From the NCBI GenBank assembly GCA_023954195.1, contig JAMLIK010000001.1:1054001-1118000 (forward strand): 64,000 nucleotides of DNA, read 5' to 3'. Both the position numbers and the translations under genes were made by a program. The stretch is from Xanthobacteraceae bacterium (GTDB taxonomy: Bacteria; Pseudomonadota; Alphaproteobacteria; Rhizobiales; Xanthobacteraceae). Under the pieces are notes generated by a model. It ran no database searches. It had not been told where the DNA came from and saw only the letters and a program-made list of their open reading frames with translations. Below, piece by piece: positions 40,192 to 61,295 of the stretch (position 1 is its first letter; each line of letters begins with the position of its first letter).

Positions 40192-40845
40192 CTATCGGGA
40201 GGCTGGCAGACCGGTGATCCGGATCCCGGCACCCGGCACCTTGTAACGTCGATTGATGCCGATCAGCACGGAGGTGAGCGCTTCCGCCGCCGCCGAATTG
40301 GCCAGCACGCCGCCGTCAACGCCACGGCTTCCGATTTCGTCGGCAAGACCGATGACGAGATCGCGTGCGTTCTTGTCGTTTCCGAACACCAGGATGTCGC
40401 AATCGGCGCGGGCGCCGGCATGCAGCTTGCTGGCCCCGACGTTGTGAAAGGCGGATACGACGCGGACACCGTCACCCAACAGGTTTTGCGCGATTTGCGC
40501 GGCCGATCCCTCGGCCGGCAACTGCGCCACCGAGACCTTCGGCGGAACGAGCGGAACGACCGCGTCGACAACAATCTTTCCCTGCACGACATCCTTGATT
40601 TCATGCAAGGTCGCCGCATGACTGGAAAACGGCACCGCGACCACGATCACATCGGCGGCCTGCGCCGCGCCGACATTGTCGTTCCCCTCGGCCTCCGCGC
40701 CAAGCTCGCTCGCGAAGGCGATGGCCTTTGCGGCGGAGCGCGATCCGATCACGACGCGGTAACCGGCGCGGAGCCAGCATTTGGCGAGACCCGAGCCCAG
40801 ATCGCCGGTTCCGCCGAGAATCGCCACGCAGGGTTTTCCGCTCAT
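40192..40845 (-). CDS. npdG: NADPH-dependent F420 reductase (F420:NADP oxidoreductase)
   Basis: This 217-residue Rossmann protein should pass hydride between NADP(H) and the deazaflavin F420. The nucleotide fold AILGGTGDLGSGLAKCWLRA is at residues 8-27, followed by VVIGSRSAAKAIAFA, where Ser-Arg reads the NADP phosphate. ADVIVVAVPF is near residue 64, AFHNVGASKL near 130 and VFGNDKNARDLV near 153, all typical of FNO/NpdG. ATG 40845 is the likely start. It is divergent from a 20-kb gene run that encodes an LLM-class oxidoreductase and the F420 biosynthesis enzymes, which strongly supports the assignment. In that setting it would make F420H2 from NADPH. Confidence 0.88.
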   Translation of the reverse strand: MSGKPCVAILGGTGDLGSGLAKCWLRAGYRVVIGSRSAAKAIAFASELGAEAEGNDNVGAAQAADVIVVAVPFSSHAATLHEIKDVVQGKIVVDAVVPLVPPKVSVAQLPAEGSAAQIAQNLLGDGVRVVSAFHNVGASKLHAGARADCDILVFGNDKNARDLVIGLADEIGSRGVDGGVLANSAAAEALTSVLIGINRRYKVPGAGIRITGLPASR

Positions 40846-41053
40846 TTGCTTCAGCCTTATGTCATCCGAGAATCGTCTCGCGCGCAATTTACGCCGGAGT
40901 TACGCCTGCGCCGCGACGCCCGAGGCAATCGCGAGCGTTATCCTCACTCATCGCCATCGACGATATCTGTCCTCCACTGAACAGAAGGCTATTGCCGCGA
41001 GCGATACGGTTCGGACGATCCTGCATCGGCTCTCTCGGCCTAGGTTTTTGTGC

Positions 41054-42109
41054 ATGAATCCAACCGTCGCACTGCTGCTTGCCCAGGACGGCATCGCCAC
41101 GGGAGCGATCTATGCGCTGCTGGCGATGGCGCTGGTTCTCGTTTTCGCGGTGACCAGGATTCCGTTCATCCCGATCGGGGAGTTCGTCGTCTATACCGCG
41201 CTGACGCTGATCGCGATCCAGGCCAATCAGGTGCCGCGCACCGTCTGGCTGCTCATCATCGTCGGCTGCGTCGCCTTCATCGCCGATGTGGCCGCTTTTA
41301 TTCGCGAACGCGAACGCGCGCCCGGTGGCGGCACGGCGCCGCTGTGGTTTTCAGCGGCGCAGAATCTGCTGCTTCCCGCGGCCATCGCCGCGATCGCGAT
41401 GCTGTTGTCCCAGAAGCCGCGGATCATGCCGCTCGACATGCTGATGGCGGTGCTGATCGTCGTCCCGCTCGCGCCGATGATCTATCGCCTGGCCTATCAG
41501 CCGCTGGTCTCCGCCAATCCGTTGGTTCTGTTCATGGTGTCGATCGCCGTGCATTTCGTGATGATCGGCCTCGGCCTCAATCTGTTCGGCCCGGATGGCG
41601 ATCGCGCCGAACCCTACGCGGACTGGCAGCTTGAATTGGGCGGTCAGATCGTGCGCGGCCAGGTCGTGATGGTGCTTGCGGCCACCGCGGCCCTGACGGT
41701 CATTCTTTACGTCTTCTTCGCGCGGACCGTTCCCGGCAAGGCGTTGCGCGCGGTCGCCGTCAATCGCGTCGGCGCGCAGCTGGTCGGCATCGGCACCGCC
41801 GCGTCGGGGAAGCTGGCGCTGACGCTCGCCGCCCTGATCGCGGCGCTGTGCGGCCTTTTGATCTCGCCCGGCGTGACGCTGAACTACCTTTCGGGGGAAC
41901 TCATCGGCCTCAAGGGATTCGTCGCGGCGGTGCTCGGCGGCTTCGTCAGCTATCCGCTGGCGGTGGTGGGCGCGTTCATCGTGAGCTTGCTGGAATCCTA
42001 CACGTCGTTCTGGGCCAGCGCTTTGAAGGAGGTGATCGTCTTCTCGCTGATCGTTCCGATTTTGCTGCTTAGAACCTTTTTATCGCGTCCCGACATGGGC
42101 GAGCATTGA
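41054..42109 (+). CDS. ABC importer permease, LivH type
   Basis: This membrane permease of 351 residues belongs to the branched-chain amino acid transporter family (BPD_transp_2). It has eight or so hydrophobic helices, the typical GIATGAIYALLAMALVLVFA at the start and the late segment LSGELIGLKGFVAAVLGGFV near residue 285 that contacts the ATPase. A longer frame exists upstream, but ATG 41054 fits the family start. Its TGA overlaps the ATG of the next gene (TGATG), so the permease genes are coupled. It begins the 20-kb rightward run ending in the F420 genes and is therefore likely to import the substrate of that pathway. Confidence 0.92.
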   Translation: MNPTVALLLAQDGIATGAIYALLAMALVLVFAVTRIPFIPIGEFVVYTALTLIAIQANQVPRTVWLLIIVGCVAFIADVAAFIRERERAPGGGTAPLWFSAAQNLLLPAAIAAIAMLLSQKPRIMPLDMLMAVLIVVPLAPMIYRLAYQPLVSANPLVLFMVSIAVHFVMIGLGLNLFGPDGDRAEPYADWQLELGGQIVRGQVVMVLAATAALTVILYVFFARTVPGKALRAVAVNRVGAQLVGIGTAASGKLALTLAALIAALCGLLISPGVTLNYLSGELIGLKGFVAAVLGGFVSYPLAVVGAFIVSLLESYTSFWASALKEVIVFSLIVPILLLRTFLSRPDMGEH

Positions 42110-43896
42110 TGAAAGACCGTGGTCCGCTGCCGTTCCAGGCGCCCCTGATCGTCGTGATTGCGTTGATCGCCCTGTTGCCGCTGGCGCCGGTGGCGTCGGC
42201 ATGGATCACGTCGTTCAACTATATCGGCCTGTTCGCGCTGGTGGCGCTCGGCCTTGTGCTGCTGATCGGCAGCGCCAACATGCTGTCATTCGGTCAGGCC
42301 GCCTTCGTCGGGCTCGGCGCCTACACCACCGCGCTGGTGACGACGCTCGCGGGGCTGTCGCCATGGCTCGGCCTCGTCCTCGGATGGCTGGTCACGGGCA
42401 TCGCCGCGTACCTGATCGGCCTTATCACGCGGCGGCTTTCCGGGCACTACCTCGCCATCGCGACCATGGCGGTGGGAATGGCGATCTACTTCGCCTTCGC
42501 CAATCTGGAGGTGCTCGGGAAGAACGACGGCCTCAACGCGCTGCCGCATCTGTCGATCCTCGGCTTCTCGTTCGAGCGCTCCGAACGGATGTATTATGTC
42601 ATCTGGGGCACCGTGGCGCTGGCGGCGCTCGGGGTCCGCAATCTGCTCAGCTCCCGCATCGGCCGCGCGATGCGCGCGCTCGCGCTCGGCGACACCATGC
42701 CGGAAGCCAACGGCATCGATACCGCGCGGCTGAAGGTTCTGACCTTCGTTCTCGCAGCCTTGCTGGCATCGACGTCAGGCTGGCTCTACGCGCACCTGCA
42801 ACGCGCCGTCAGTCCGATCCCGTTCGGCCTGACGCACGGCACCGAGTATGTCTTCATGACGGTTCTCGGCGGCGCCAGCAGTGTCTGGGGGGCGATCCTC
42901 GGCGCCGGCCTTTTCGTGCTTCTGGACGACGTGCTGCGCAATCTGCTGCCGCGCCTTTTGGGCGGCGACGGCCATTACGAATTGGTCGCGCTGGGCGTGA
43001 TGCTGATCGTCATCCTCCAGCGCGCGCGCGACGGCCTGTGGCCGTTTCTAGCGCGGCGAATGACGGAATACCGGCTCGCCGAAGCGCCGGCGCAGGCGCC
43101 GGTCCTGCCGGCGCGGCCCAGGCCCGCCCCCGGCGAACCGGTTCTGGAGGCGCGCGGACTCCAGAAACGCTTCGGCGGCCTCGTCGCGGTCAGCAATGTG
43201 AGCTTCGATATCAAGGCCGGGGAAATCCTGGCGCTGATCGGCCCCAATGGCGCCGGCAAGTCGACGACGTTCGACCTCGTCACCTCGGTGCAACGCCTGA
43301 GCGCCGGCGAGGTCTCGTTCCGCGGAACCAAAATTTCCGATCTGCCGTCACGCGCCGTCTTCGCGCTCGGCGTCGGCCGCACGTTCCAGCACGCCAACCT
43401 GCTGCCGAACATGTCGGTGCTGGAAAACGCCGCGCTGGGCGCGCATCTGCGCGGCGACGGGCACGCCATCGGCGATGTGCTCGCCAGCGCCTCGCGTCTC
43501 AACCGGGCCGAGGAGCGCAAGCTGCTGCACGAAGCGGCGAAGCAACTCGACCGCGTTGGCCTCGGAGACAGTCTCTACACCGCGGCGGGCAATCTGGCGC
43601 TCGGGCAGCAGCGGCTGGCGGAGATCGCGCGCGCGCTTTGCGGCGACCCCACGCTGCTGCTGCTGGACGAACCGGCGGCCGGCCTGCGCTACTTCGAAAA
43701 GGTCGCGTTGTCGTCGCTGCTGCACCAGCTCCGCAGCGAGGGGATGAGCATTCTTCTGGTCGAGCACGACATGGAGTTCCTGATGGAGCTGGCCGATCGC
43801 GTGATCGTCATGGATTTCGGGCGCTTGATCGCATCGGGCACCCCCGAGCAGGTGCAAAACGACCCGGCGGTCCGGCGCGCCTATCTTGGCGATTGA
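42109..43896 (+). CDS. Fused ABC importer permease and ATP-binding protein (LivM-LivG type)
   Basis: This single 595-residue protein joins a LivM-like permease and a LivG-like ATPase. The membrane part (about residues 1-310) has ten or so helices and the segment MTVLGGASSVWGAILGAGLF. A Pro/Ala linker (APVLPARPRPAPGEPV) follows. The ATPase from about 345 has Walker A GPNGAGKS(TT), the signature LALGQQRLAEIARAL (an unusual LALGQQ in place of LSGGQ), Walker B LLLLDEPAAGL and the H-loop LLVEHDMEFLM. It is coupled to the LivH gene before it. The fusion occurs in other proteobacteria. Substrate type is not predictable, as Liv-like importers carry amino acids, aromatic acids or amides. Confidence 0.92.
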   Translation: MKDRGPLPFQAPLIVVIALIALLPLAPVASAWITSFNYIGLFALVALGLVLLIGSANMLSFGQAAFVGLGAYTTALVTTLAGLSPWLGLVLGWLVTGIAAYLIGLITRRLSGHYLAIATMAVGMAIYFAFANLEVLGKNDGLNALPHLSILGFSFERSERMYYVIWGTVALAALGVRNLLSSRIGRAMRALALGDTMPEANGIDTARLKVLTFVLAALLASTSGWLYAHLQRAVSPIPFGLTHGTEYVFMTVLGGASSVWGAILGAGLFVLLDDVLRNLLPRLLGGDGHYELVALGVMLIVILQRARDGLWPFLARRMTEYRLAEAPAQAPVLPARPRPAPGEPVLEARGLQKRFGGLVAVSNVSFDIKAGEILALIGPNGAGKSTTFDLVTSVQRLSAGEVSFRGTKISDLPSRAVFALGVGRTFQHANLLPNMSVLENAALGAHLRGDGHAIGDVLASASRLNRAEERKLLHEAAKQLDRVGLGDSLYTAAGNLALGQQRLAEIARALCGDPTLLLLDEPAAGLRYFEKVALSSLLHQLRSEGMSILLVEHDMEFLMELADRVIVMDFGRLIASGTPEQVQNDPAVRRAYLGD

Positions 43897-43906
43897 GGAG
43901 ACAACG

Positions 43907-44659
43907 ATGGCTCCTGTTCTCGACGTGAAAGGATTGCAGGTTCGCTACGGCGGCGTTCCGGCGTTGGCGGACGTCGATATCGTGGTGGAGCAAGGCGCCA
44001 TCGTTTCGGTGATCGGCCCCAATGGCGCCGGCAAGTCGACGCTGCTCAACGCGGTGATGGGCATCCTTCCCGCCAACGCCGCAGCGCGCGGCCAGATCAG
44101 GTTCGAAGGTGTCGAATTCTCCGGGCTTGGCGTCGAGAAACGCGTCTTCGGCGGCTTGAGTCTCGTTCCGGAGCGGCGGGAATTGTTCGGCTCGATGACG
44201 GTCGCGGACAACCTGCTGCTCGGCGCGCAGCGGCTGCGCCATCTCGGCGAGGCCAACCCGATGTCCCAGATCGATATGATCTACGAGATGTTTCCGCGCC
44301 TGAAGGAGCGGCGCGCGCAGTTCGCCGCGACCCTGTCCGGCGGCGAGCGGCAGATGCTGGCGATCGGGCGCGCGCTGATGGCCAAGCCGCGGCTCCTGAT
44401 GCTCGACGAGCCCAGCCTCGGGCTTGCGCCGCTGGTGGCGCGGGAGACGCTGAATCTGGTGAGCAGGCTCAGCGCGACCACGTCGATCCTGCTTGTCGAG
44501 CAGAACGCCAAGGCGGCGCTCAACGTCTCGGATGCCGGTTACGTGATGGAGATGGGCAAGATGACGGCGCATGGACCGGCTTCGAGCCTGGCGAACGATC
44601 CAAGAATTATCGAGGCCTATCTGGGGGTCGGAAAGAAGAAAGCAAAGCCCGGAGATTGA
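43907..44659 (+). CDS. ABC importer ATP-binding protein, LivF type
   Basis: This ATPase of 250 residues is the partner of the fused LivM-LivG protein. It has VLDVKGLQVRYGG at the start, Walker A GPNGAGKSTLLNAVMG (about 38-53) and the signature LSGGERQMLAIGRALM (about 143). Walker B is LLMLDEPSLGLAP and the H-loop ILLVEQNAKAAL. GAGGAG lies 6 bases before the ATG. It begins ten bases after the fusion gene stop and precedes the binding protein gene, completing an ABC importer of four proteins. Confidence 0.94.
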   Translation: MAPVLDVKGLQVRYGGVPALADVDIVVEQGAIVSVIGPNGAGKSTLLNAVMGILPANAAARGQIRFEGVEFSGLGVEKRVFGGLSLVPERRELFGSMTVADNLLLGAQRLRHLGEANPMSQIDMIYEMFPRLKERRAQFAATLSGGERQMLAIGRALMAKPRLLMLDEPSLGLAPLVARETLNLVSRLSATTSILLVEQNAKAALNVSDAGYVMEMGKMTAHGPASSLANDPRIIEAYLGVGKKKAKPGD

Positions 44660-44751
44660 CACTGACCATCGTGCCGGTCGCCGAACCAGGGATGCGGCCG
44701 CCACGCTTTATTGAGACGCTTCAATCCAGCAAAACCATGAGAGGGGACGCT

Positions 44752-45906
44752 ATGTTAAAGATATTGGCTTTATCGGCTGCCATCGGTCTGGTGAGTTTCG
44801 GCGCGCGCGCCGACAACAACGATCCGGTCCGAGTGGGGATCATTCTGTCCGCGACCGGACCGGCATCGTCGCTCGGCGTGCCGCAGCGCAAGGCCGCGAG
44901 CCTGCTCCCGACCGAGCTCTCGGGACACAAGATTCAATTCCACATCGAAGACGATGCCTCGGATCCCGCGCAGGCGGTAAAAGCCGCGCGCAAGCTCCTG
45001 CTCGACGAGAAGGTGGACGTGCTGATCGGCCCGAACACGACGGTCTCGTCGCTGGCCGTTCTCGACGTGGTCAGCGAAGCGAAAACGCCGATGGTGAGTT
45101 TCGCCGGAAGTTCCCGGATCGTTTCGCCGGTGGACGCCAAGCGCCACTGGACCTTCAAATCCGTTCCCGATGAATCGCTGATGGCGGAGACCACGCTCAA
45201 GCACATGGCGTCGAACGGGATCAAGAAGCTGGCGCTGATCGCCACCGGCGACGCGCTCGGGGACACCTGGGACGACGAACTCGGCAAGCTGGTGCCGAAG
45301 TACGGCATCTCCCTGGTGGCCAAGGAGCGTTACGCCGCAACCGACATGTCGGTGGTGGCCCAGGTCGCGAAGATCATGGAGGCGAAGCCCGAGGCGGTCC
45401 TGATCGCGGTCGCGGCCACGCCCGCGGCGCTGCCGGCGCAGACGCTGCGCGAGCAAGGCTACAAGGGCAAGATCTATTTCACTTACGCCGCGCTCAATCC
45501 GGAAGTGCTCAAGCTCGGCGGCAAGAAGATGGAAGGCGCGATCGCCGCCTACACGCCGGCGATGGATATCGACCATCTGCCCCCGAACGATCCGGTGCGT
45601 CTGCTGGTCGACCCGATCCGCAAGCGTTACGAGGCCGCCAACAACGGGCAATGGTCGACCAATGCGCTGAGCATCATCGCGGCGTGGAATCTGGTCGAGG
45701 CGGGGCTGAAGCAGACCCTGACCACAAACCGGCCCGGCACCCCGGAGTTCAGGGCGACGCTGCGCGACAGGCTCGAAGAACAAAAAGATCTGATTACCGC
45801 GGTGGGCCCGGTGTCGATGTCGAAGACCAATCATGCCGGCTTCGACCAGCGCGCCACCGCGCTGTTCGAGGTGACCAACGGCGCCTGGAAGCTCATCACC
45901 AAGTAA
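44752..45906 (+). CDS. ABC importer substrate-binding protein, branched-chain type
   Basis: This periplasmic receptor of about 384 residues has a signal peptide (MLKILALSAAIGLVSFGARA) and the Peripla_BP_6 fold. The mature start is DPVRVGIILSATGPASSLGV. The family segments DASDPAQAVKAARKLLLDEK and VDVLIGPNTTVSSLAVLDV occur near residues 65-105. ATG 44752 has AGGGGA upstream; an in-frame ATG at 44737 is less likely because it would precede the signal peptide with charged residues. It is the specificity subunit of the importer and thus a handle on the compound that the F420 island handles. No ligand can be read from the sequence. Confidence 0.93.
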   Translation: MLKILALSAAIGLVSFGARADNNDPVRVGIILSATGPASSLGVPQRKAASLLPTELSGHKIQFHIEDDASDPAQAVKAARKLLLDEKVDVLIGPNTTVSSLAVLDVVSEAKTPMVSFAGSSRIVSPVDAKRHWTFKSVPDESLMAETTLKHMASNGIKKLALIATGDALGDTWDDELGKLVPKYGISLVAKERYAATDMSVVAQVAKIMEAKPEAVLIAVAATPAALPAQTLREQGYKGKIYFTYAALNPEVLKLGGKKMEGAIAAYTPAMDIDHLPPNDPVRLLVDPIRKRYEAANNGQWSTNALSIIAAWNLVEAGLKQTLTTNRPGTPEFRATLRDRLEEQKDLITAVGPVSMSKTNHAGFDQRATALFEVTNGAWKLITK

Positions 45907-46061: not shown

Positions 46062-46499
46062 GTGGAGACCACGTTCATCAATCTTGCCAAGAACAAGACG
46101 CGAAACATTCCTGGCATCAAGGGAACGGGAATTGCAGCCGCGTTTTCCGATGCGGTCCGCGTCGATTATTCCGATCACTTCACTCTCTATGTTTCCGGAA
46201 AGCTCGCGACCGACTCCGACGGCAATATCGTCGGCCGGACCATGGCCGAGCAGGCCGAGCGCGCGCTCCAGAACATCAAGGAAATTCTTGAGCAGCAGGG
46301 CGCGGGCATGGAGCACATCGTCCGCACCCTGATTTTCGTCACTCAAATCGATACGCAATCGCTGCGCGAGATTCACGAGGTCCGGGCGCGGTTCTTCAAG
46401 GATGGCCGCTTCCCCGCCAGCACCCTCGTTCGCACCAGCCAGTTGGTTCGCGACGGCGGCCTGATCGAGATCGAAGCCGAGGCGGTGGTGCCACGCTGA
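46062..46499 (+). CDS. Rid-family protein lacking the RidA catalytic Arg
   Basis: This 145-residue YjgF/YER057c/UK114 (Rid) family protein has the trimer fold pattern: FTLYVSGKLATDSDGNIVG near residue 43, then AEQAERALQNIKEILEQQG, and RTLIFVTQIDTQSLREIHE. RidA deaminates reactive enamines/imines and needs an Arg in a PxRS-type motif. Here the motif reads GRFPASTLVRTSQL, so that Arg is Ser. The protein therefore belongs to another Rid subgroup, many of which are found in catabolic operons. The start is GTG 46062, which gives a normal family length. It may assist an imine or enamine step of the neighbouring pathway, but that is inference. Confidence 0.85.
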   Translation: METTFINLAKNKTRNIPGIKGTGIAAAFSDAVRVDYSDHFTLYVSGKLATDSDGNIVGRTMAEQAERALQNIKEILEQQGAGMEHIVRTLIFVTQIDTQSLREIHEVRARFFKDGRFPASTLVRTSQLVRDGGLIEIEAEAVVPR

Positions 46500-46569: not shown

Positions 46570-47511
46570 ATGTCCCTGCGCGTCGGAATTTCCATCCCCC
46601 AGTCCGGAGACCAGGTCCTCGATATCGCGCGGCTGCGCCGGTTCGTGACGCGGGCCGAGGCGATCGGTTTCGACAGCCTGTGGGTGGCCGAGCAGATCTT
46701 CGGACCGGGACCGCGCCTCGATGCGCTGGGACTGCTGACCTATACGGCGGCGATGACTTCGCGCGTTCAACTGGTCAGCGGCATTCTTCTGAGCGCGCTG
46801 CGCAGCCCGGTGCTGCTGGCCAAATCGATCGCGACGTTGGATCATCTCAGCGGCGGCCGCACCGTGATCGGCGTCGGTCTCAGCGGCGACCGGGAGGTTT
46901 ATCCGGCGATGGGATATCGCGCCGAGGATCGCGGCAAGCGTTTCGATGCCGGGATCAGACTGATGAAACGGGCGTGGACGGAGCCGTCACTGTCCGACGA
47001 AAGCGAGTTCTGGTCGATCACGGATCAGCGGCTCGAACCCAAGCCGTTGCAAAAGCCGCACCCGCCGATCTGGTTCGGCGGCTCGAATCCCAAGGCGCTC
47101 GCCCGCGCGGTCGCGCTCGGCGACGGCTGGATCGGCGCGGGCGCCGCCCCGGCCGCGCGCTTTGTCTCGGAATACGACCTGTTGCAGCAGGAACTGCGCA
47201 AGGCTCGCCGCGATCCCGCGACCTTTACCGTCGCCAAGCGGCTCTACGTCGCGGTGGCCAACGATGCTGCGGCGGCGCGGACGCGGGCGCGCCAATGGTT
47301 CGCCACCACGTATCACGGACGCGACACCGATATGGCGAGCGAGGTCTGCGTCATCGGCCCGCCGGACGCATGCGCCGAACAGATTCACCGGCTCGTCAAG
47401 GGGCGCGTCAGCCACCTTGCGCTCAGTCCCGTGTTCGACGAGACGGAGCAACTTGAAATTCTCGGCCAGGAATTGTTGCCGCGCTTGCGCCAGCTCGTTG
47501 ATAACGGATGA
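46570..47511 (+). CDS. LLM-class oxidoreductase, probably F420-dependent
   Basis: This 313-residue TIM-barrel enzyme is of the luciferase-like monooxygenase superfamily. Characteristic segments are RVGISIPQSGDQVLDIARL, the early RAEAIGFDSLWVAEQIFGPG, SGGRTVIGVGLSGDREVYPA near residue 93, and KPHPPIWFGGSNPKALARAV near 160. Bacterial members use FMN or F420. The surroundings (F420 biosynthesis genes downstream and an NADPH:F420 oxidoreductase gene upstream) make F420 the likelier cofactor, so it would reduce or oxidise a C=C, C=N or C-OH group by hydride transfer. I cannot name the substrate. The ATG follows a short gap after the Rid gene. Confidence 0.88.
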   Translation: MSLRVGISIPQSGDQVLDIARLRRFVTRAEAIGFDSLWVAEQIFGPGPRLDALGLLTYTAAMTSRVQLVSGILLSALRSPVLLAKSIATLDHLSGGRTVIGVGLSGDREVYPAMGYRAEDRGKRFDAGIRLMKRAWTEPSLSDESEFWSITDQRLEPKPLQKPHPPIWFGGSNPKALARAVALGDGWIGAGAAPAARFVSEYDLLQQELRKARRDPATFTVAKRLYVAVANDAAAARTRARQWFATTYHGRDTDMASEVCVIGPPDACAEQIHRLVKGRVSHLALSPVFDETEQLEILGQELLPRLRQLVDNG

Positions 47512-47553
47512 TCGGCGTCGACGGGCGCTCGCGACTTGCGAAAGGGTTGGAAG

Positions 47554-48528
47554 ATGCGCGCCGTGCTTTGCAAGACGTTGGATGGCGTTGATGCGCTGGA
47601 ATTGGCGTCGATCGAGCCGCCGAAGCCGGCTCCGGGCGAAGTGCTGATCCGGGTGCGGACCGCGGCCTTGAACTTTCCGGACCTTCTGATTGTCGAAGGG
47701 CGTTATCAGGTGAAGCCGCCGCTGCCGTTCGTGCCCGGAATGGAAATGGCCGGCGTGGTGCATGAACTCGGCGAGGGTGTCGATGGCCTTTCGATCGGCG
47801 ACAGGGTCTCGGCGGTGGTCACCTGGGGCGCGTTCGCGGAGTTCGCGGTCGCGCGCGCCGAACGGGTGGTGCCGCTGCCCGATACGATGGAATTCGGCGT
47901 CGGCGCCGCGCTCGGGCTCGCCTACCAGACGGTCTGGCACGCGCTGAAATCCCGCGCGCGCCTGCGGAAGGGCGAAACCCTTCTCGTTCTCGGCGCGTCG
48001 GGCGGGGTGGGTCTCGCCGCGGTGCAACTCGGGCGGCAGGTCGGCGCCACCGTGATCGCGGCGGCCTCCTCCGACGCGAAGCTCGACATATGCCGGGCCC
48101 AGGGCGCCGATCACGTGATCAATTATCGCGACGCCGATCTGCGCAAGGAGCTTCAAGCCACCGTCGGGAAGAACGGCGTCGACGTGGTGCTGGACCCGGT
48201 GGGCGGCCCCTATTCCGAACCCGCGCTGCGTTCGCTCGGCTGGCGCGGACGTTATCTCGTGGTCGGCTTCGCCGAAGGCACCGTGCCGAAACCGCCGCTC
48301 AATCTGGTGCTTTTGTCCGAACGCGACATTCTCGGCGTCTATGTCGCCGAGTTCTTCCGGCGCGAGCCGCGGGCGCGGCTCGATCTGGCTCGGGAACTGA
48401 CCGGCTTTGTCGCATCGGGGTGCTTCACGCCCGTCATATCGGCGTCGCTCCCTCTCGAACGCTTCGCCGACGCGATGAAGATCTTGCAGGGCCGCGAGGC
48501 CATCGGGAAAATATTGCTGATCATGTGA
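47554..48528 (+). CDS. Quinone-oxidoreductase-like zinc-free MDR enzyme
   Basis: This 324-residue NADPH-dependent medium-chain reductase is of the quinone oxidoreductase/enoyl reductase group. NFPDLLIVEGRYQVKPPLPF (near residue 47) and PGMEMAGVVHELGEGV are family marks. The NADPH fold LVLGASGGVGLAAVQLGRQV starts near 146, and a later GADHVINYRDADL is also typical. It lacks the zinc ligands of alcohol dehydrogenases. ATG 47554 has AAAGGG upstream. Within the cluster it may reduce an alpha,beta-unsaturated carbonyl or CoA ester after the F420-dependent step; that role is inferred from position. Confidence 0.92.
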   Translation: MRAVLCKTLDGVDALELASIEPPKPAPGEVLIRVRTAALNFPDLLIVEGRYQVKPPLPFVPGMEMAGVVHELGEGVDGLSIGDRVSAVVTWGAFAEFAVARAERVVPLPDTMEFGVGAALGLAYQTVWHALKSRARLRKGETLLVLGASGGVGLAAVQLGRQVGATVIAAASSDAKLDICRAQGADHVINYRDADLRKELQATVGKNGVDVVLDPVGGPYSEPALRSLGWRGRYLVVGFAEGTVPKPPLNLVLLSERDILGVYVAEFFRREPRARLDLARELTGFVASGCFTPVISASLPLERFADAMKILQGREAIGKILLIM

Positions 48529-48980
48529 GCGATCATAGGGATTTCCGACAAGGTATTGCCTGCAAGGCGAGAACAGCTTTCTCGGCCCGCTCGCAGCCTT
48601 TACCGCCAAGGCCGATTCCGGTCGGCGCCGAGCGGCATCGAACCATTGCGGCCGCATCCCGTGGCTTCAGCGCACGGCCAAGATTCGCGCCAGCCGCGAA
48701 CGGCTCCGCCGCGCGCACTATCGCGACAGGAGAAATATCGCGAATAGACACGCATAGGTCGGAAGCCGAGAAAGGCGGTCGACGCGCCCTGTTCAAGAAA
48801 ACGTGCGGGTGTTATCCATGACAATCCTCCCAGACAGTGTCGCGGCGACCAGGATAGAGCTTCAGAATGACCGCGGCGCCGGGCCGGCACCGGTCGATCG
48901 GCGGGCATCGAAGCCGTGTCGGCCACGTTGCGGAACCGGACGTTCTGACCTATCTGTTTTCGGCTTTTCGGACCGCGTTG
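48529..48980. other. Intergenic region before the Crp-family regulator gene
   Basis: A 452-base stretch on which I see no believable gene. A reverse frame of 87 codons (48533-48796) has no ribosome site. It contains two TATCGCGA-type near repeats around 48718-48745. The promoter of the regulator and of the second half of the cluster probably lies here, but I cannot point to a clear -35/-10 pair or Crp-like dyad. Confidence 0.45.
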
Positions 48981-49676: not shown

Positions 49677-49732
49677 ACAGACGGGAGGCGGCGAGCGGCG
49701 GATAATCGGATCCATGGTGCGATAGGTGAAAC

Positions 49733-50479: not shown

Positions 50480-50483
50480 TCCG

Positions 50484-52295: not shown

Positions 52296-52306
52296 GGAGA
52301 ACTCAG

Positions 52307-54382: not shown

Positions 54383-56133
54383 ACGTCCAGGAAACAATCT
54401 CATCGGGCATCGATCCGCTCAGCATCGCGGTCTTCGAATCGAAGCTCAATCATATCGCGCGCGAAATGGGCATCGCGATGCTGCGCGCGTCGCGCAGCCC
54501 GATCTTCAGCCAGTCTCATGACTTCTCGTGCTTCATCACCGATGCGTCGGGCCGGCTGATCTCGCAGGCCGATGGCGTGCCGATTCACACCGGCGCCGGC
54601 GGCTTCGCGGTGCGCGCGGTGCTCGACTACTGGGGCGACGACATCGCGCCCGGCGACATCTTCCTGTCCAACGACCCCTACGTCGCCGGCGGCAACCACC
54701 TGCCCGACCTGACCGTGATCTGTCCGGTGTTCGACGGCGAGCGCATCGCCTTCGCCTGCAACCGCGCGCACCAGATCGATATCGGCGGCGGCGCGCCGGG
54801 CACCTACAATCCCGATGCGACGGAAATCTTCCACGAGGGATTGCGGGTGCCGCCGGTGAAGCTGTTCGACAAGGGCAAGATGCGGCACGACGTGCTTGAG
54901 CTGGTCGCGCTCAACACCCGCATGCCTGAGACGGTGAAAGCCGACATGCAGGCCATGCTCGGCTCGGTGCAGGTCGGCGCGCGCGGCCTCACGGAACTTT
55001 CGGCGACCTGCAAGGAGCACGACTTCACCGCGCATTGCGGCGCGGTGCTCGACTATGCCGAGCGGATCGTGCGACGGGAGATCGAGGAGATCCCCGACGG
55101 CGTCTACCATGGCGTCGATGTTTTGACCCATGACGGCTTCGCGCCGAACGAGATCCGTATCGCGGTGACGATCACGGTCGCCGGCAGCGAGCTTCTGGTG
55201 GATTTCGAGGGCTCAAGCCCGCAGGTGCGTTCCTACAAGAACAGTTCGTTCGCCAACACCCATGCGGCGGTCTATGTCGCGCTGTCGACGCTGCTGGGCC
55301 CCGACACGCCGCATAACGAAGGCAGCTACCGGATGATGCGGGTGGCGGCGCCCAAGGGCAGCGTGGTGAATCCGGAAGCGCCCGCGCCGGTGACGTTCAG
55401 CACGGTGCATCCGACCTACGAAATCGTTCACGCGGTCTGGAAGGCGCTGGCGTCGGCGGTGCCGGGGCGGGTCTCGTCCGGATGGGGCAAGCTGTGTCAT
55501 CCGGTGACCTCGGGCCTCGACCCGAACGGCAAGCTGTTCATCATGTATCATATGGCTGCCCAGCCCGGCGCCGGCGCGATGTGCGGGCGCGACGGCTTCG
55601 ACCAGATCGGCCAGTTGCAGAGTCTCGGTGCGATCACGATTCCGAATCTGGAATCCTACGAGCAGTTGTACCCGATCGAATTCATCAAGCATGAGTTCCG
55701 CACCGACAGCGCCGGGGCCGGCCAGTTCCGCGGCGGCGCCGGCGTCGAATACGCGCTGCGCATGCTGATGCCGACCAAGAACAACCTTCGCGGCGAGGGC
55801 GTCGGCGCGCGCACCGGCTTCGGCCTGTGCGGCGGCGAGGCCGGCGCCTCCGCCGAACTGATCGTCGAACCGGACACCGACGCGGAACGCGCGCTGCCGG
55901 TCAGCGGCGTGATCGACCTGCCGCCGTGCACGATGCTGGTGCGCTCCTCCGGCGGCGGCGGCTGGGGCTCGCCGTTCGACCGCTACCCGGAGGAGGTTCG
56001 GCAGGACGTTCTCGACGGCATCCTCACCGCGAAGACGGCGGCCGAGCAGTATGGCGTCGTGTTCCAGCCGGGATCGCTGGAGGTCGACCGCGCCGCGACC
56101 ACGGCGCTGCGCCAAAGCAGGGCAGCGGCATGA
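54379..56133 (+). CDS. hyuB: Hydantoinase/oxoprolinase subunit B (HyuB family)
   Basis: This 584-residue partner subunit has the HyuB hallmarks FLSNDPYVAGGNHLPDLTVI near residue 94, RAHQIDIGGGAPGTYNPDA near 132, and ATEIFHEGLRVPPVKLFDKG. A late GAGQFRGGAGVEYALRML near 440 and SSGGGGWGSPFDRYPEEV near the C-terminus are also typical. The start GTG 54379 overlaps the TGA of the A subunit (GTGA). As with other enzymes of this family, A and B form a complex that uses ATP to activate and hydrolyse an amide. The 148-base gap to cofE is the largest of the second half of the run, so a separate promoter for the F420 genes is possible. Confidence 0.93.
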   Translation: MNVQETISSGIDPLSIAVFESKLNHIAREMGIAMLRASRSPIFSQSHDFSCFITDASGRLISQADGVPIHTGAGGFAVRAVLDYWGDDIAPGDIFLSNDPYVAGGNHLPDLTVICPVFDGERIAFACNRAHQIDIGGGAPGTYNPDATEIFHEGLRVPPVKLFDKGKMRHDVLELVALNTRMPETVKADMQAMLGSVQVGARGLTELSATCKEHDFTAHCGAVLDYAERIVRREIEEIPDGVYHGVDVLTHDGFAPNEIRIAVTITVAGSELLVDFEGSSPQVRSYKNSSFANTHAAVYVALSTLLGPDTPHNEGSYRMMRVAAPKGSVVNPEAPAPVTFSTVHPTYEIVHAVWKALASAVPGRVSSGWGKLCHPVTSGLDPNGKLFIMYHMAAQPGAGAMCGRDGFDQIGQLQSLGAITIPNLESYEQLYPIEFIKHEFRTDSAGAGQFRGGAGVEYALRMLMPTKNNLRGEGVGARTGFGLCGGEAGASAELIVEPDTDAERALPVSGVIDLPPCTMLVRSSGGGGWGSPFDRYPEEVRQDVLDGILTAKTAAEQYGVVFQPGSLEVDRAATTALRQSRAAA

Positions 56134-56281
56134 GCGACGGCGTGACAGCCTGAGCAGGGTTGCTTGACCCGCGTTGCGCCGGGGCTCATATCCTCGGCGA
56201 CACCGCGACGCGGAACGGTCGGGTCGGCGCCGTCGCGGCAACGATCGAACGGCGTTGGGTTCGGGAAAGTCACATCGAGCG

Positions 56282-57046
56282 ATGGTCAAAAGCATCACCT
56301 GCACCGCCCTTCCCGATCTTCCGCTGGTCGAGCCCGGAGCCGATCTGGTTGAAATCATCGTTGATGGCGTGGCGCGCGCGGGCATCGGCGTCGGCGGCGG
56401 CGATATTTTCGTCATTGCCCAGAAGATCGTGTCCAAGGCGGAAAATCGCTACGTCGATCTCGACGAGGTGAAACCCTCGCCGCAGGCGCGCGAATGGGCG
56501 GCGATCGTCGGCAAGGACCCCCGGCATGTCGAGGTGGTGCTGTCGGAATCGAACGGTGTGGTTCGCGCCCGGCGGAACGTGATGATCGTTGAGCATCGCC
56601 TCGGTTTCGTGATGGCCAACGCCGGGATCGATGAATCCAACGTCGCGCAGGATGGCGGCCATCGCGTGCTGTTGCTGCCGGAAAACCCGGAAGCGAGTTG
56701 CGCGCGCCTTAAGCGAGGCCTTGACCGCCGCTTCGGCGCCGATGTCGGGGTGATCGTGAACGACAGCTTCGGCCGACCGTTTCGAAACGGGGTCGTCGGC
56801 GTGGCCCTCGGCTGCGCGGGGATCCCGGCGCTCGAAAGCAGGATCGGAGCTCCCGATCTGTTCGGCCGTCCCATGCAGGTCACGGAAATCGCGGTGGCGG
56901 ATGAACTGGCGGCGGCGGCGTCGCTGGTGATGGGACAGGCGGCGGAAGGACAGCCCGTCGTTCACGTCCGCGGCTATTCCAGCCCGGCGCCGCGCCTCGA
57001 TGCGGCGGCGCTGATCCGCCCGAGGGAACGGGACATGTTTCGATGA
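56282..57046 (+). CDS. cofE: Coenzyme F420-0:L-glutamate ligase (CofE)
   Basis: This 254-residue enzyme adds gamma-linked glutamates to F420-0 with GTP. The family segments are VGGGDIFVIAQKIVSKAENR near residue 41, then NVMIVEHRLGFVMANAGIDE near 98, LLLPENPEASCARLKRGLD near 128, and VIVNDSFGRPFRNGVVGVAL near 160. Unlike actinobacterial FbiB there is no C-terminal flavin reductase domain. ATG 56282 is the only start that gives the family N-terminus. Its ATG-to-stop end overlaps cofD by four bases (ATGA). Together with the next three genes this gives a full F420 pathway. Confidence 0.94.
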   Translation: MVKSITCTALPDLPLVEPGADLVEIIVDGVARAGIGVGGGDIFVIAQKIVSKAENRYVDLDEVKPSPQAREWAAIVGKDPRHVEVVLSESNGVVRARRNVMIVEHRLGFVMANAGIDESNVAQDGGHRVLLLPENPEASCARLKRGLDRRFGADVGVIVNDSFGRPFRNGVVGVALGCAGIPALESRIGAPDLFGRPMQVTEIAVADELAAAASLVMGQAAEGQPVVHVRGYSSPAPRLDAAALIRPRERDMFR

Positions 57047-58053
57047 GCGACGATTCCGGAAAGCGCGATGGGGCCGGCCGCGTGGTCGCCCTGTGCGGCG
57101 GGGTCGGCGGCGCGAAACTCGCGCTCGGCCTGCAAGCGAATCTCGGCGTGCGATTGACGGTGATCGTCAATATGGCCGACGATTTCAATCACCTCGGCCT
57201 GCACATCTCGCCCGACCTCGATACCGTGCTCTATACGCTCAGCGGCCTCAATGACACGGCGCGCGGTTGGGGCCGCGCCGGCGAGACCTGGAATTTCATG
57301 GCGGCGTTGCAACAGGTCGGCGGCGACACCTGGTTTCAACTGGGCGATCGCGATCTCGCCCTGCATGTCGAGCGAACGCGACGCCGCGCGCTGGGCGAGA
57401 CCCCCACGACCATCGCCGCCGATATCGCCAAGCGTCTTGGCGTAACCGCGCGCATTTTGCCCGCGACCGACGCCGATCTCCGAACGATGGTGACAACTCC
57501 GGAAGGCGAACTGGAATTTCAACGCTATTTCGTCGCGCGCCGCTGCGAGCCGACGGTGAAGCGCATCCATTTCGAGGGGCGCGAGAACGCGATGGCGACC
57601 GACGATGTTCGTCAGGCGCTGGCGGCGGACGACCTTGAACTCATCGTCATTTGTCCGTCAAACCCCTATCTCAGCATCGATCCGATCCTCGCGGTGCGCG
57701 GCATCGCGGACGGCTTGCGCGCGGCGCGAGCGCCGGTGGTCGCCGTGTCGCCGATCATCGGCGGCGAAGCCGTCAAGGGACCGACGCGCAAGATCATGGA
57801 CGAACTCGGGCTGGCTCCGACCAATGCCGAAATCGTCGCGCACTACCGCGGGCTGATCGATGGCCTCGTGATCGATCGGGCGGACGGCGCCGAGGCCGCC
57901 TCGCTCGGCACCGAAGTCTGTGTCGCGGCCACGCTGATGACGGATTTGCCGTCGAAAATTCGGCTCGCCGAGCAGGTGCTCGCGTTCGGCCGCCGCATCC
58001 GGGGCGCGCGGGCCGGCGAAACAATCGCTGTCGCGTCGGGAGATGGTGCGTGA
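57043..58053 (+). CDS. cofD: 2-phospho-L-lactate (or PEP) transferase CofD/FbiA
   Basis: This 336-residue enzyme joins the activated phospho-acid (from CofC) to Fo, giving F420-0 or a variant. The hallmark VVALCGGVGGAKLALGLQAN is at residue 14, then VIVNMADDFNHLGLHISPDL near 40, and DTVLYTLSGLNDTARGWG. ICPSNPYLSIDPILAVRG near 204 and PIIGGEAVKGPTRKIMDELG near 230 follow. The start overlaps cofE by ATGA, and its TGA overlaps the GTG of cofC, so all three genes are coupled. Whether the donor is 2-phospholactate, PEP or 3-phosphoglycerate cannot be read here. Confidence 0.95.
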   Translation: MSDDSGKRDGAGRVVALCGGVGGAKLALGLQANLGVRLTVIVNMADDFNHLGLHISPDLDTVLYTLSGLNDTARGWGRAGETWNFMAALQQVGGDTWFQLGDRDLALHVERTRRRALGETPTTIAADIAKRLGVTARILPATDADLRTMVTTPEGELEFQRYFVARRCEPTVKRIHFEGRENAMATDDVRQALAADDLELIVICPSNPYLSIDPILAVRGIADGLRAARAPVVAVSPIIGGEAVKGPTRKIMDELGLAPTNAEIVAHYRGLIDGLVIDRADGAEAASLGTEVCVAATLMTDLPSKIRLAEQVLAFGRRIRGARAGETIAVASGDGA

Positions 58054-58790
58054 GCCACAACGCGGCATGGGTGATTGTTCCGGCCAAATCGTTTGGCCGC
58101 GCAAAGCTGCGGCTTTCGCCCGTTCTGACCGCCGACGAACGCGCGATGCTGGCGCGCGCGATGCTGACCGATGTCGTCGGGGCCGCCTTGAGCGTGTCGG
58201 ATCCGGACAACATCGCCGTCGTCACCGGCCCTGACGACGTGGCGCGCGAGGCGGCTCGTCTCGGCGTCAGGGTCATCGATGACGATGGGGCCACCGAGAT
58301 CAATCCGGCCATTGTGGCCGGACTCGCCGCGGTGCGCCGCAGTGGAGGACGACGTGTCCTGATCCTGCCGGGCGATGTTCCCGCCGTCACGGGCGAGACG
58401 ATCTCGACGCTGCTGGAGATCGCGGCGCGCGGGCGCGTCGCGATCGTGCCCGCGACGCACGACGGCGGCACCAATGCCCTGGCGCTCGACAGCCCCGACC
58501 GGCTGGAAGCCTGCTTCGGCTTGCGGAGCCTTGCCCGGCATATCGTGGCGGCCCATCGCGCGGGCGTGAAACCCGTCATCGTTCCGAACGCTCGTCTCGG
58601 ACTCGATATCGACCGGCCCGACGACCTGGTTCGATTTCTCGATCTGCGGACATCGACCGCGACGGACCATTATTTGCGTTCGCTCGGCATTGCCCGCCGG
58701 AATGTCGCGCGTTTCGCGGCAATGGAAATTCCCGTGGCTGGCGCGGTTCTCCGGGGCCACGGCGCGGCGCATCTTGAGTTGGGACCATAG
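58050..58790 (+). CDS. cofC: 2-phospho-L-lactate guanylyltransferase CofC/FbiD
   Basis: This 246-residue nucleotidyltransferase activates the phospho-acid with GTP before CofD. The N-terminal signature is AAWVIVPAKSFGRAKLRLSP, close to the family pattern PxKxxxxAKxRL. The metal-binding segment VLILPGDVPAVTGETISTLL lies near residue 107, followed by IVPATHDGGTNALALDSPDR near 139. The start GTG 58050 shares bases with the stop of cofD (GTGA). CofC controls which F420 variant is made: phospholactate in archaea, PEP in mycobacteria, 3-phosphoglycerate in some proteobacteria. The choice here is open. It ends 39 bases before fbiC. Confidence 0.92.
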   Translation: MSHNAAWVIVPAKSFGRAKLRLSPVLTADERAMLARAMLTDVVGAALSVSDPDNIAVVTGPDDVAREAARLGVRVIDDDGATEINPAIVAGLAAVRRSGGRRVLILPGDVPAVTGETISTLLEIAARGRVAIVPATHDGGTNALALDSPDRLEACFGLRSLARHIVAAHRAGVKPVIVPNARLGLDIDRPDDLVRFLDLRTSTATDHYLRSLGIARRNVARFAAMEIPVAGAVLRGHGAAHLELGP

Positions 58791-58829
58791 TCCATCCTCG
58801 CCGACCGGCGAGGCATGAGGAGCTTGTCG

Positions 58830-61295
58830 ATGGCGGATCGATCGCTTGATGAGAAACTTCAGCGCGATGATATAACGGCCGCCGAAGTCATGGACTTGGT
58901 GGGTGAGAAGCCTCTCGCCGATCTGATGCGGCTCGCCGCCGACAAGCGCGATGCCCGGCACGGCGCGAGAGTAACCTATTCCCGCAAGGTTTTTATTCCG
59001 CTGACCCAGTTATGCCGGGACGTCTGCCATTACTGCACCTTCGCGCATGCGCCGCGCAAAGGGCAGCGCGCCTATCTCACCGTCGACGAGGTCGTGGCGA
59101 TCGCGCGCGCCGGCCGCGCGGCCGGATGCAAGGAGGCGTTGTTCACGCTTGGCGACAAACCCGAACGACGCTATCGCCAGGCGCGAGACGAACTGCGGGA
59201 AATGGGATATCCGACGACACTGGCCTATCTCGAACATGCCGCGCGCACCGTGTTCCGGGAGACCGGCCTGCTGCCGCATCTCAATCCGGGCGTGATGACG
59301 ACGGACGATCTGGCGCGGCTTCGCAGGGTTTCCATCTCGCAAGGACTGATGCTCGAAAGCGCATCCGCGCGGCTGTGCGCGCGCGGCGGACCGCATTTCG
59401 GGTCGCCCGACAAGGAGCCGTCCCAACGCTTGCGCACGATCGAGCTTGCGGGCCGGCAGGCGATCCCCTTCACCACCGGGCTGCTGATCGGCATCGGCGA
59501 AACCCTGCTTGAGCGCGTCGAATCGCTGCTGGCGCTCCGCGCATTGGACCACCGCTACGGCCACATTCAGGAAATCATCATCCAGAATTTCAAGCCGAAG
59601 CCCGCGACCCGGATGGCGCACGCCGCGCCGGCGAGCCTCGAAGACCATCTTTGGACAATTGCGCTGGCGCGATTGCTGTTCCGTCCGGACATGAACATTC
59701 AGGCGCCGCCGAATCTCAGTCCGGGCGTGCTGGACCAGATCATCGCCGCAGGCATCAACGATTGGGGCGGCGTGTCTCCGGTGACCCCGGATCATGTCAA
59801 TCCGGAATCGCCGTGGCCGCATCTCGCGCGCCTCGACGAGGCGACCGCCCAATGCGGCAAAAAACTGACCGAGCGTCTCGCGATCTATCCCGCCTATGCG
59901 CGCGACCCTGCGCGCTGGTCCGATGCCTCGCTACAAACGGCGCTGCTTCATGCCACGGATGCGAATGGCGCGCCACGTTCGGACGAGTGGTGTCCCGGCG
60001 CCGTGAGCCGACTTCCGGCGCGCGACGTCGGCCTGCTCGATGCGCCGATGGCGGCGCCGTCGATCGTCGACGGCGGCATCGGGAAAATCATCGCCAAGGC
60101 GCAATCGCGGCGGCGGCTCGACGAAAGCGAGATTGTCTCGCTGTTCGAGGCGGAGGACGGACATTTCACGGCGATTTGCCGCGCCGCCGACGAGTTGCGG
60201 CGCGACGTCAACGGCGACGCCGTCAGCTACGTCGTCACCCGTAACATCAACTATACCAATATCTGTTACTTCAAATGTCAGTTCTGCGCATTTTCGAAAG
60301 GAAAGCTTGCCGAAAATCTGCGCGGCCGGCCTTACGATATCTCGCTGGACGAAATCGAACGCCGTGCGGTCGAGGCGTGGCGACGCGGCGCGACCGAGGT
60401 CTGCATGCAGGGCGGAATCCATCCGGCCTATACCGGCGAGACCTATCTCGCGATCTGCCGCGCCGTGCGGCGGGCGACGCCGAACATGCACGTCCATGCC
60501 TTCTCGCCGCTGGAAGTGTTCCAGGGCGCCAAGACGCTCGGCATTTCGGTGCGGGAGTTCACTCAGGAACTCAAGCGGGTCGGGCTTGGCACGCTGCCGG
60601 GAACGGCCGCGGAGATTCTGGATGACGAAATTCGCGCCGCGCTATGCCCCGACAAGATCAACACCGCGCAATGGCTCGACGTGATGCGAACCGCGCACCT
60701 GGCCGGGCTGCGCAGCACCGCGACCATCATGTTCGGGCATCTGGACCGTTATGCGCATTGGGCACGCCACCTCCTGCGGCTGCGCGATCTTCAGGCGGAG
60801 ACCGGCGGCTTCACCGAATTCGTGCCGCTGCCATTCGTCCACATGGAAGCGCCGATCTATCTGAAGGGACGCGCGCGCAAGGGACCGACGTTCCGCGAGG
60901 TGATCCTGATGCACGCCGTGGGGCGGCTGGCGCTGCACGGCATGATCTCGAACATTCAGGCGTCCTGGGTGAAACTCGGCGAAGACGGCGTCACCGCCTG
61001 CCTGAAGGCCGGCGTCAACGATCTTGGCGGCACGCTGATGGACGAAACGATTTCGCGCTCCGCCGGCGCGCGGCATGGCCACGAGATGCCGCCACGCGAA
61101 ATGGAGGCGCTGGTCCGGGCGACCGGCCGCGCGCCGCGACAACGCACGACGCTGTATGCCGACGTCGATCGGGAGCGCTACTTCGCCTCGCTCGATGCGC
61201 CCGAGTTGCTGCCGATCATGACCGGACTGGAGTCACGCCCCGCCGCAAGCGAGGGCGTGACCCGCCGTGCCGCGGATTCCGCGGCGGCCTCTTGA
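58830..61295 (+). CDS. fbiC: Bifunctional Fo synthase FbiC (CofG-CofH fusion)
   Basis: This 821-residue fusion of two radical-SAM enzymes makes the deazaflavin Fo from tyrosine and 5-amino-6-ribitylaminouracil. The CofG half (about 1-395) carries the iron-sulfur motif in LCRDVCHYCTF, with Cys 62, 66 and 69. The CofH half (about 420-821) carries CYFKCQFC, with Cys 479, 483 and 486. Both have SAM-family partners such as PNLSPGVLDQI and FVPLPFVHMEAPIYLKGRAR. ATG 58830 has AGGAG 7 bases upstream; an ATG at 58815 lacks one. The fused form is common in actinobacteria, whereas archaea and cyanobacteria have separate proteins. It closes the F420 operon; ahcY is convergent 54 bases on. Confidence 0.96.
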   Translation: MADRSLDEKLQRDDITAAEVMDLVGEKPLADLMRLAADKRDARHGARVTYSRKVFIPLTQLCRDVCHYCTFAHAPRKGQRAYLTVDEVVAIARAGRAAGCKEALFTLGDKPERRYRQARDELREMGYPTTLAYLEHAARTVFRETGLLPHLNPGVMTTDDLARLRRVSISQGLMLESASARLCARGGPHFGSPDKEPSQRLRTIELAGRQAIPFTTGLLIGIGETLLERVESLLALRALDHRYGHIQEIIIQNFKPKPATRMAHAAPASLEDHLWTIALARLLFRPDMNIQAPPNLSPGVLDQIIAAGINDWGGVSPVTPDHVNPESPWPHLARLDEATAQCGKKLTERLAIYPAYARDPARWSDASLQTALLHATDANGAPRSDEWCPGAVSRLPARDVGLLDAPMAAPSIVDGGIGKIIAKAQSRRRLDESEIVSLFEAEDGHFTAICRAADELRRDVNGDAVSYVVTRNINYTNICYFKCQFCAFSKGKLAENLRGRPYDISLDEIERRAVEAWRRGATEVCMQGGIHPAYTGETYLAICRAVRRATPNMHVHAFSPLEVFQGAKTLGISVREFTQELKRVGLGTLPGTAAEILDDEIRAALCPDKINTAQWLDVMRTAHLAGLRSTATIMFGHLDRYAHWARHLLRLRDLQAETGGFTEFVPLPFVHMEAPIYLKGRARKGPTFREVILMHAVGRLALHGMISNIQASWVKLGEDGVTACLKAGVNDLGGTLMDETISRSAGARHGHEMPPREMEALVRATGRAPRQRTTLYADVDRERYFASLDAPELLPIMTGLESRPAASEGVTRRAADSAAAS

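Follow-up and report, generated by a model that had tools for sequence, protein, structure and literature searches.

Why would an alphaproteobacterium make the cofactor F420, and which reaction would need it? The question is raised by a locus in a window of 64,000 nucleotides (the whole stretch of DNA analyzed here) from a Xanthobacteraceae bacterium (assembly GCA_023954195.1, contig JAMLIK010000001.1, positions 1,054,001 to 1,118,000; source genome of 4.18 Mb in seven contigs, 99.4% complete). At positions 40192–61295 of the window, an island joins genes for F420 biosynthesis and reduction to genes for an ATP-binding cassette (ABC) importer, a luciferase-like (LLM-class) oxidoreductase, acyl-CoA enzymes, and HyuAB, a hydrolase of the ATP-dependent cyclic-amide type. 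In the available portion of a 2021 review, the reason for F420 synthesis in Proteobacteria is called an unanswered question, and, of the bacteria other than Actinobacteria, none is said to have had an F420-reducing or F420H2-using enzyme studied by experiment (PMC8498797). The position of the F420 genes beside genes for import and degradation suggests an answer, namely that the latter probably use F420 for the reduction and opening of a nitrogen-containing ring.

The families of the window genes were assigned with NCBIfam and Pfam profiles against curated cut-offs. The four activities required for F420 biosynthesis (FO synthase, CofC, CofD, and CofE) are all encoded, each above its cut-off. 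The preliminary description of this DNA had listed cofE, cofD, cofC, and fbiC at the end of a rightward run holding an importer, an LLM-class oxidoreductase, acyl-CoA genes, and an ATP-dependent amide hydrolase, and headed by a divergent NADPH:F420 oxidoreductase gene (fno, or npdG); the profiles bear out every one of these assignments. Serine or threonine at the position of S162 in CofC is described, in the part of the source available, as diagnostic of the use of 3-phosphoglycerate, as in the 3PG-F420 of the Mycetohabitans type (PMC8764529). The window CofC has a glycine at the equivalent position (in an alignment read by eye); the 3PG-F420 type is thus rejected and ordinary F420 is expected. 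A dehydro-F420 reductase (FbiB C-terminal type), which would be required with phosphoenolpyruvate as the donor, is absent among the annotated island genes, the part of the genome covered; in some relatives, a gene of this type adjoins the cof genes.

Three LLM genes were found in a search of the bacterium's own genome, and the island LLM is the only one above an F420-family cut-off. The second is of the MsnO8/YhbW type (434.8, cut-off 166.95). The third falls under every F420 cut-off and is directly followed by an open reading frame of 187 residues resembling a flavin reductase (a label given by reading, not by family search). None of the three is Fgd, so that Fno is the sole F420 reductase found. 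None of the three PNPOx-type matches in the genome is above an F420-family cut-off either (one is PdxH and two pass no listed cut-off). The structural model of the island LLM (predicted local distance difference test score 91.6) has the F420-dependent Mer as its best fold match, with flavin mononucleotide (FMN) enzymes close behind. The genome is in this respect a simple test case, with a single F420-type oxidoreductase above cut-off, in the same island as the cofactor genes. As to the F420 reductases of other loci, among 92 distinct F420 loci read around cofE, 50 have fno only, 28 fgd only, none both, and 14 neither; the window fno is 15 kb from cofE and on the opposite strand.

We infer that the island LLM uses F420, and its co-occurrence with CofE supports this assignment. 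Of 391 genomes of the family, 50 have a match to the island LLM at E ≤ 1e-40, and CofE is above its cut-off in all 50, against 96 of the 391 with any CofE match and 93 with one above cut-off (P ~1e-36, a value that treats genomes as independent, which they are not). Counted by genus, the LLM occurs in 12 genera, each of them with CofE, versus CofE in 23 of 47 genera (P 2.6e-5). A paralogue taken as control (the L041-type LLM) shows no link, with 61 of its 263 genomes having CofE (odds ratio 0.80, P 0.38). In 35 of the 50 genomes, the LLM and CofE share a contig, and in 31 they are within 30 kb of each other. Several LLM matches, those of G218, G201, G113, G295, and G008 among them, hold one internal stop.

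The genes within about 10 kb of the cof genes at 77 distinct proteobacterial F420 loci (window included) were compared with 40 control stretches of 20 kb. From the named loci, 46 of 80 were used, after removal of 13 with a non-proteobacterial label and 21 with a length under 15 kb; the family loci numbered 19 in a first tally and 32 in a second. The locus of G104, a copy of L066, was dropped, and that of G214, which is the same as L069, was counted once; G030a and G093a are nearly identical. Because the marker queries were taken from loci of the foreground set, which included the window, L053, L110, G030a, and plasmid loci, because loci are related, and because the controls stand at chosen round positions, the P values are rough. 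An LLM gene is found beside the cof genes in 49/77 loci versus 0/40 controls at E 1e-20 (63/77 versus 1/40 at 1e-10), and a molybdenum hydroxylase in 21/77 versus 1/40 at 1e-20. A ring-opening cyclic-amide hydrolase is present in 17/77 loci versus 0/40 controls at 1e-20 (P 6e-4; five HyuA, ten PxpA, and two others), in 16/76 when G093a is left out (P 1e-3), and in 19/77 versus 0/40 at 1e-10. The pairing of cof genes with some ring hydrolase is therefore enriched; pairing with HyuAB and Rid specifically is observed in a few named cases. At some F420 loci (L065, L066, L112, and L253), four to seven LLM matches lie within 20 kb around cofE.

One of these cases is in one other genus of the family (G030 and G093), where a single locus holds fbiC-fno-cofE-cofD-cofC, ABC genes, an LLM gene (192.5, cut-off 166.9), HyuA, HyuB, and Rid, together with a nitroreductase (FbiB C-terminal type). 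There, the cof genes and those for the LLM, HyuA, HyuB, and Rid are on one strand, and those for the substrate-binding protein and the regulator are on the other. With the window, the identity is about 27% for the LLM and about 36% for HyuA, so that the pairing is either old or repeated. G093 has two copies of the island (C1:48000-87999 and C1:1418000-1457999; L235-L238). Between the second copy and G030, the LLM, HyuA, HyuB, and Rid are 92–95% identical and the nitroreductase and two flanking genes 70–77%. In L110 (Rhizobiales bacterium 65-79), a HyuAB fusion stands immediately ahead of fno-cofE-cofD-fbiC.

Other loci combine F420 with other hydrolases. The common rhizobial F420 island carries a molybdenum hydroxylase, CoA-transferases, pyridoxal-phosphate lyases, an M20 peptidase, an LLM, and, in many cases, PxpA (LamB/YcsF). 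On a plasmid of Leisingera aquaemixtae (L258, 593-14465), genes for a nucleobase symporter, a dihydropyrimidinase, a Zn hydrolase, an aminotransferase, and a transhydrogenase share a stretch with cofG/H/D/C/E, npdG, and a TIGR03842 LLM, a locus with the look of the reductive pyrimidine pathway, in which an F420 LLM would take the part of the ring reductase. The conjugative plasmid of Agrobacterium rubi (L260, 2220-14853) has PxpA, two carboxyltransferase-domain genes (called of the PxpB/PxpC kind by reading; of the two clusters labelled PxpB and PxpC, the first was likewise named by reading and the second, as PxpC-like, by one family search), an LLM, cof genes, a gamma-aminobutyrate transaminase, and npdG, and is another locus joining F420 to a lactam hydrolase. 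In a Variovorax plasmid, an amidohydrolase, a C-N hydrolase, an LLM, RidA, and cof genes occur together. CofE matches are found on 42 plasmid records (16 typed as conjugative), and seven of the 42 were read at the locus.

HyuA and HyuB have the features of the ATP-dependent lactamases and hydantoinases (HyuAB, CapAB), with the PF01968 and PF02538 subunits, ATP motifs, and metal ligands. HyuA has the ATP motifs DIGGTFT at 13 and DMGGT at 295, with a third partly matched (GAEP at 358). In HyuB, Asp48, His107, Asp110, and His131 align with the metal-site residues of CapB (alignment to 6yra_B, read by eye), one aligned aspartate sitting one position off the published CapB number. The CapA profile scores 639.8 on HyuA and the CapB profile 369.4 on HyuB, both under the equivalog cut-off of 1000; caprolactamase identity is therefore rejected and caprolactam is not implied as the substrate.

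From these genes a pathway can be proposed, in which the substrate, the direction of the reaction, and the use of F420 are all inferred. The importer would take up a nitrogen-containing ring compound (an N-heterocycle or an unsaturated lactam), and Fno would reduce F420 with NADPH. The LLM would then use F420H2 to reduce a C=C or C=N bond in this ring by hydride transfer, and the resulting lactam, imide, or hydantoin, now saturated, would be opened by HyuAB with ATP. RidA might remove a reactive imine, and the CoA-transferase, the hydratase, and the medium-chain dehydrogenase/reductase (MDR) enzyme would take the acid product into central metabolism via CoA esters. If so, F420 in this organism would serve mainly this one pathway. 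We give about an even chance to the account in which the island is an accessory catabolic one that brings its own redox cofactor, F420, for use by the LLM and HyuAB in reducing and opening a nitrogen-containing ring.

The island can be called accessory because homology with 6/6 relatives (four of the genus, two of the family) breaks at its right edge, 47–57 bp past fbiC, beside ahcY, where the genus relatives have other sequence in common. Beyond that edge, ahcY is matched in 6/6 relatives and the next gene, metK-like, in 5/6. A left edge was looked for and not found; the right edge alone is clear. CofE is present in 13/61 genomes searched (own included) and in 3/8 genomes of the genus.

How tightly the parts are bound together can be judged from G005, of the same genus. 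Its contig C5 carries the catabolic block (permease 1 through HyuB) at 84–96% protein identity (LLM 84%, HyuA 91%, HyuB 94%, Rid 94%, CoA-transferase 96%); the homology starts near permease 1 and, at the DNA level, stops at window position 56135, two bases after the HyuB stop. Contig C7 of the same genome has a full fno-cofE-cofD-cofC-fbiC set, with a different ABC importer and a different LLM as neighbors, as well as a second pair of cofC and fbiC. Since G005 holds the block apart from F420 genes, the catabolic block forms a module distinct from the cof cassette. In trees, the window cofE, cofD, cofC, and fbiC fall into groups (supports 1.0, 0.93, 1.0, and 1.0, respectively) that also contain whichever of these genes L046, L047, L057, G014, and the second G005 pair possess. 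The window fno groups with that of the common rhizobial F420 islands (support 0.88; wider clade 0.92). From these trees, in which G008, G393, and short proteins were left out and G214 and L069 (the same locus) were both kept, the island in the window seems to have been put together from parts of separate origin.

The same gene order was seen in no other genome examined. An orthologue of the island LLM above 80% identity occurs in G005 only, among 391 family genomes (own included), the next best being 35%. In a sample of the class, one of 384 other genomes (G785) has LLM matches past 1e-60 (43% and 38%), with no other island genes on the 9-kb and 20-kb stretches fetched around them. The idea of one fixed unit, put forward in the preliminary description, is thus not upheld: the G005 block lacks adjacent cof genes and fno, fno and cof genes differ in their nearest relatives, and conserved synteny, proposed there as a check, fails in relatives for the exact order, save for the block from permease 1 to HyuB in G005. 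What survives of the claimed pairing of F420 synthesis with one catabolic system is the functional part. Functional coupling of F420 synthesis and the catabolic block is supported by the single LLM above cut-off, by CofE in 50 of 50 genomes, and by recurrence in another genus.

Several observations weigh against the account of an accessory island with its own cofactor. There are no cof genes or fno around the G005 block in the 52 kb read, so cof and catabolic genes need not be linked. Most of the LLMs that give the co-occurrence are just 30–35% identical to that of the island, and fold comparison does not tell use of F420 from use of FMN, with FMN enzymes scoring near Mer. Near the cof genes, HyuA alone is not significantly enriched (5/77 versus 0/40, P 0.16; 4/76, P 0.3, without the near-identical copy), nor is Rid (0/77 at 1e-20, 2/77 at 1e-10), nor the importer ATPase (21/77 versus 9/40, P 0.66). 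In three of the seven plasmid loci read (Paracoccus alcaliphilus, Aromatoleum, and Croceicoccus), no ring hydrolase is found near the cof genes. A genome search with PF04075 (the F420H2 quinone-reductase family) gave no match, with a control that was equally silent, so that further F420 enzymes may be hidden in the genome.

Of the other explanations, the one that survives best, while still unlikely, is that the LLM works oxidatively, dehydrogenating a pathway intermediate with F420 while Fno hands the electrons back to NADP. Fno is able to run in either direction, and the sequence itself does not dictate which way the LLM step goes; for an oxidation, however, the low-potential F420 offers little gain over NAD. 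F420 loci also pair an LLM with ring-opening hydrolases more than the controls do, which fits a prior reduction of the ring. The relatives Fgd and Adf are dehydrogenases, in the portion of the review available (PMC8498797), but Fgd is absent among the three LLMs found.

It is distinctly improbable that F420 serves the cell in a general way (in redox balance, stress, or detoxification) and that a mobile cof cassette found in the island a convenient place to land. The variety of genes that cof cassettes adjoin, the CofE matches on plasmids, some of them conjugative, and the different nearest relatives of fno and the cof genes would all fit such a role; on the other side stand the island LLM, as the sole F420-type oxidoreductase above cut-off in the genome, and the strong enrichment of LLM genes beside cof genes. 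Least probable is that the LLM is an FMN-dependent monooxygenase splitting or oxygenating the ring like RutA, with the cof genes as chance neighbors serving other enzymes: FMN LLMs and F420 LLMs match the structural model about equally well, a RidA gene adjoins the LLM gene as the Rut system also has one, and the cof genes are a separable module, but no flavin reductase is found among the island genes, CofE accompanies the LLM in all 50 family genomes with a match whereas the paralogue shows no link, and the TIGR03619 score is above its cut-off with no other F420 oxidoreductase above cut-off found.

Returning to the accessory island with its own cofactor, a wider statement can be made more tentatively, as possible and somewhat short of probable. 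Proteobacterial F420 may often be a plug-in cofactor, its mobile cassette repeatedly joined to catabolic modules for nitrogen-ring reduction by an F420H2-dependent LLM, the products being opened by one of several unrelated cyclic-amide hydrolases (HyuAB, PxpA-type, dihydropyrimidinase); the window would be one such module, in a genome that makes F420 essentially for that reaction. If true, this would explain F420 synthesis in these bacteria. The reductive opening of nitrogen rings or lactams, to which the recurring partners point, is of use for pollutant breakdown and biocatalysis, and G005 offers a natural comparison for testing the island.

The features of the island are collected in the table below. 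Start sites were scored with a codon model built from the window (the lower-GC G030a was annotated separately), and fno alone is on the minus strand. Four coupled overlaps had been described. Two of 4 bp stand, at 54379/54382 (HyuA/HyuB) and 57043/57046 (cofE/cofD); those at 42106/42109 and 44656/44659 need TTG starts not chosen by the coding score. The HyuB/cofE junction is not an overlap, since cofE most likely starts at the ATG at 56282, leaving 148 bp after the HyuB stop at 56133. A gap of 338 bp (48528-48867) precedes the Crp gene, so that a single 20-kb operon is not established. A scan of 48400-61500 gave no promoters (1.5 expected) and seven terminators (9.0 expected). The RidA-family protein scores 62.5 bits with TIGR00004, under the cut-off of 106.25, and has RidA-family matches in the PDB. 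For the CoA-transferase, the nearest NCBIfam family is succinate-glutarate CoA-transferase (303 bits, cut-off 750). Adjoining fno, an HWE-type PAS histidine kinase lies at 38572-40029, with matches of 67–74% identity in 2/9 other genomes searched.

Table 1. Features of the F420 island, in window coordinates, with profile scores and start sites.
Feature	Position	Strand	Family, score, and start
fno/npdG, NADPH:F420 oxidoreductase	40192..40857	-	TIGR01915 187.8 bits, cut-off 149.8; start approximate
ABC importer permease 1, branched-chain amino acid type	40967..42109	+	PF02653; likely start 40967-41054
Importer fused permease and ATPase	42106..43896	+	PF02653, PF00005, PF12399; start 42106 or 42109
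Importer second ATPase, LivF-like	43886..44659	+	PF00005; start 43886 or 43925
Importer periplasmic substrate-binding protein	44656..45906	+	PF13458 170 bits; start 44656 or 44791
RidA-family protein (imine/enamine deaminase-like)	46062..46499	+	PF01042 79.2 bits; likely start 46062
LLM-class oxidoreductase, predicted F420-dependent	46570..47511	+	TIGR03619 175.5, cut-off 166.9
MDR/quinone oxidoreductase-like enzyme	47536..48528	+	PF00107; TIGR02824 244.6, under cut-off 296.8
Crp/Fnr-type regulator	48867..49676	+	PF00027, PF13545
Enoyl-CoA hydratase family	49733..50479	+	PF00378 148.8 bits
Family III CoA-transferase	50484..51695	+	PF02515 391 bits
Glyoxalase/VOC family protein	51723..52295	+	PF00903 54 bits
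HyuA, ATP-dependent cyclic-amide hydrolase family, subunit A	52307..54382	+	PF01968
HyuB, subunit B	54379..56133	+	PF02538
cofE, F420-0:glutamate ligase	56282..57046	+	TIGR01916 267.4, cut-off 180.65; likely ATG start 56282
cofD, 2-phospho-L-lactate transferase	57043..58053	+	TIGR01819 263, cut-off 257.45
cofC, guanylyltransferase	58071..58790	+	TIGR03552 157.8, cut-off 105; likely start 58071
fbiC (cofGH), FO synthase	58815..61295	+	NF006687 1167.1, cut-off 1018; start 58815 or 58890
Island right edge beside ahcY	61342..61352	none	homology with 6/6 relatives ends

No title or abstract among the best-ranked papers of an open-access library joins F420 genes to HyuAB or describes F420-linked ring catabolism in Proteobacteria. 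A Tsukamurella plasmid locus, among the best actinobacterial plasmid matches to the LLM, shares no pathway with the island in its neighbors; a Nonomuraea record with another such match carries no annotation there. Fno is also part of the npd system of picrate degradation, which differs from the island in being actinobacterial and directed at a nitroaromatic; we know of no HyuAB step in it. In Rhodococcus, Nocardia, and Nocardioides, as far as the available portion of the review goes, the npd system has, as proposed for the island, F420H2-dependent LLM-type reductases attacking a ring, which they do aerobically (PMC8498797). In the same portion, Oligotropha carboxidovorans and Paracoccus denitrificans, the two species tested, are, like the window host, Alphaproteobacteria; they make trace F420, for which a niche-specific role is suggested, and, unlike in the island as read here, no pathway is assigned to it (PMC8498797).

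Two reductive pathways were considered for the island and rejected. The pyrimidine (Pyd) pathway finds neither a dihydropyrimidinase nor a ureidopropionase among the island genes, and the uric acid pathway finds no homologue of xanthine dehydrogenase (XdhD), SsnA, YgeW, YgeY (M20), or YgeX among the annotated genes. For the hydrolase, the comparison is closest with the caprolactamase CapAB, as described in the part of the source available (PMC8453981): the families are those of HyuA and HyuB and the ATP and metal motifs are kept in the window, the difference being in the scores under the CapA and CapB equivalog cut-offs. The island HyuAB is of the oxoprolinase-related type, whereas the HyuA of the uric acid pathway is of the D-phenylhydantoinase type. 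For the order of the steps, the nearest parallel is in the uric acid gene clusters of Chloroflexota, where, according to the portion of the report available, a putative F420 LLM stands in for the ring reductase; as proposed for the island, the LLM would reduce the heterocycle before amidohydrolases open the ring (PMC12507026).

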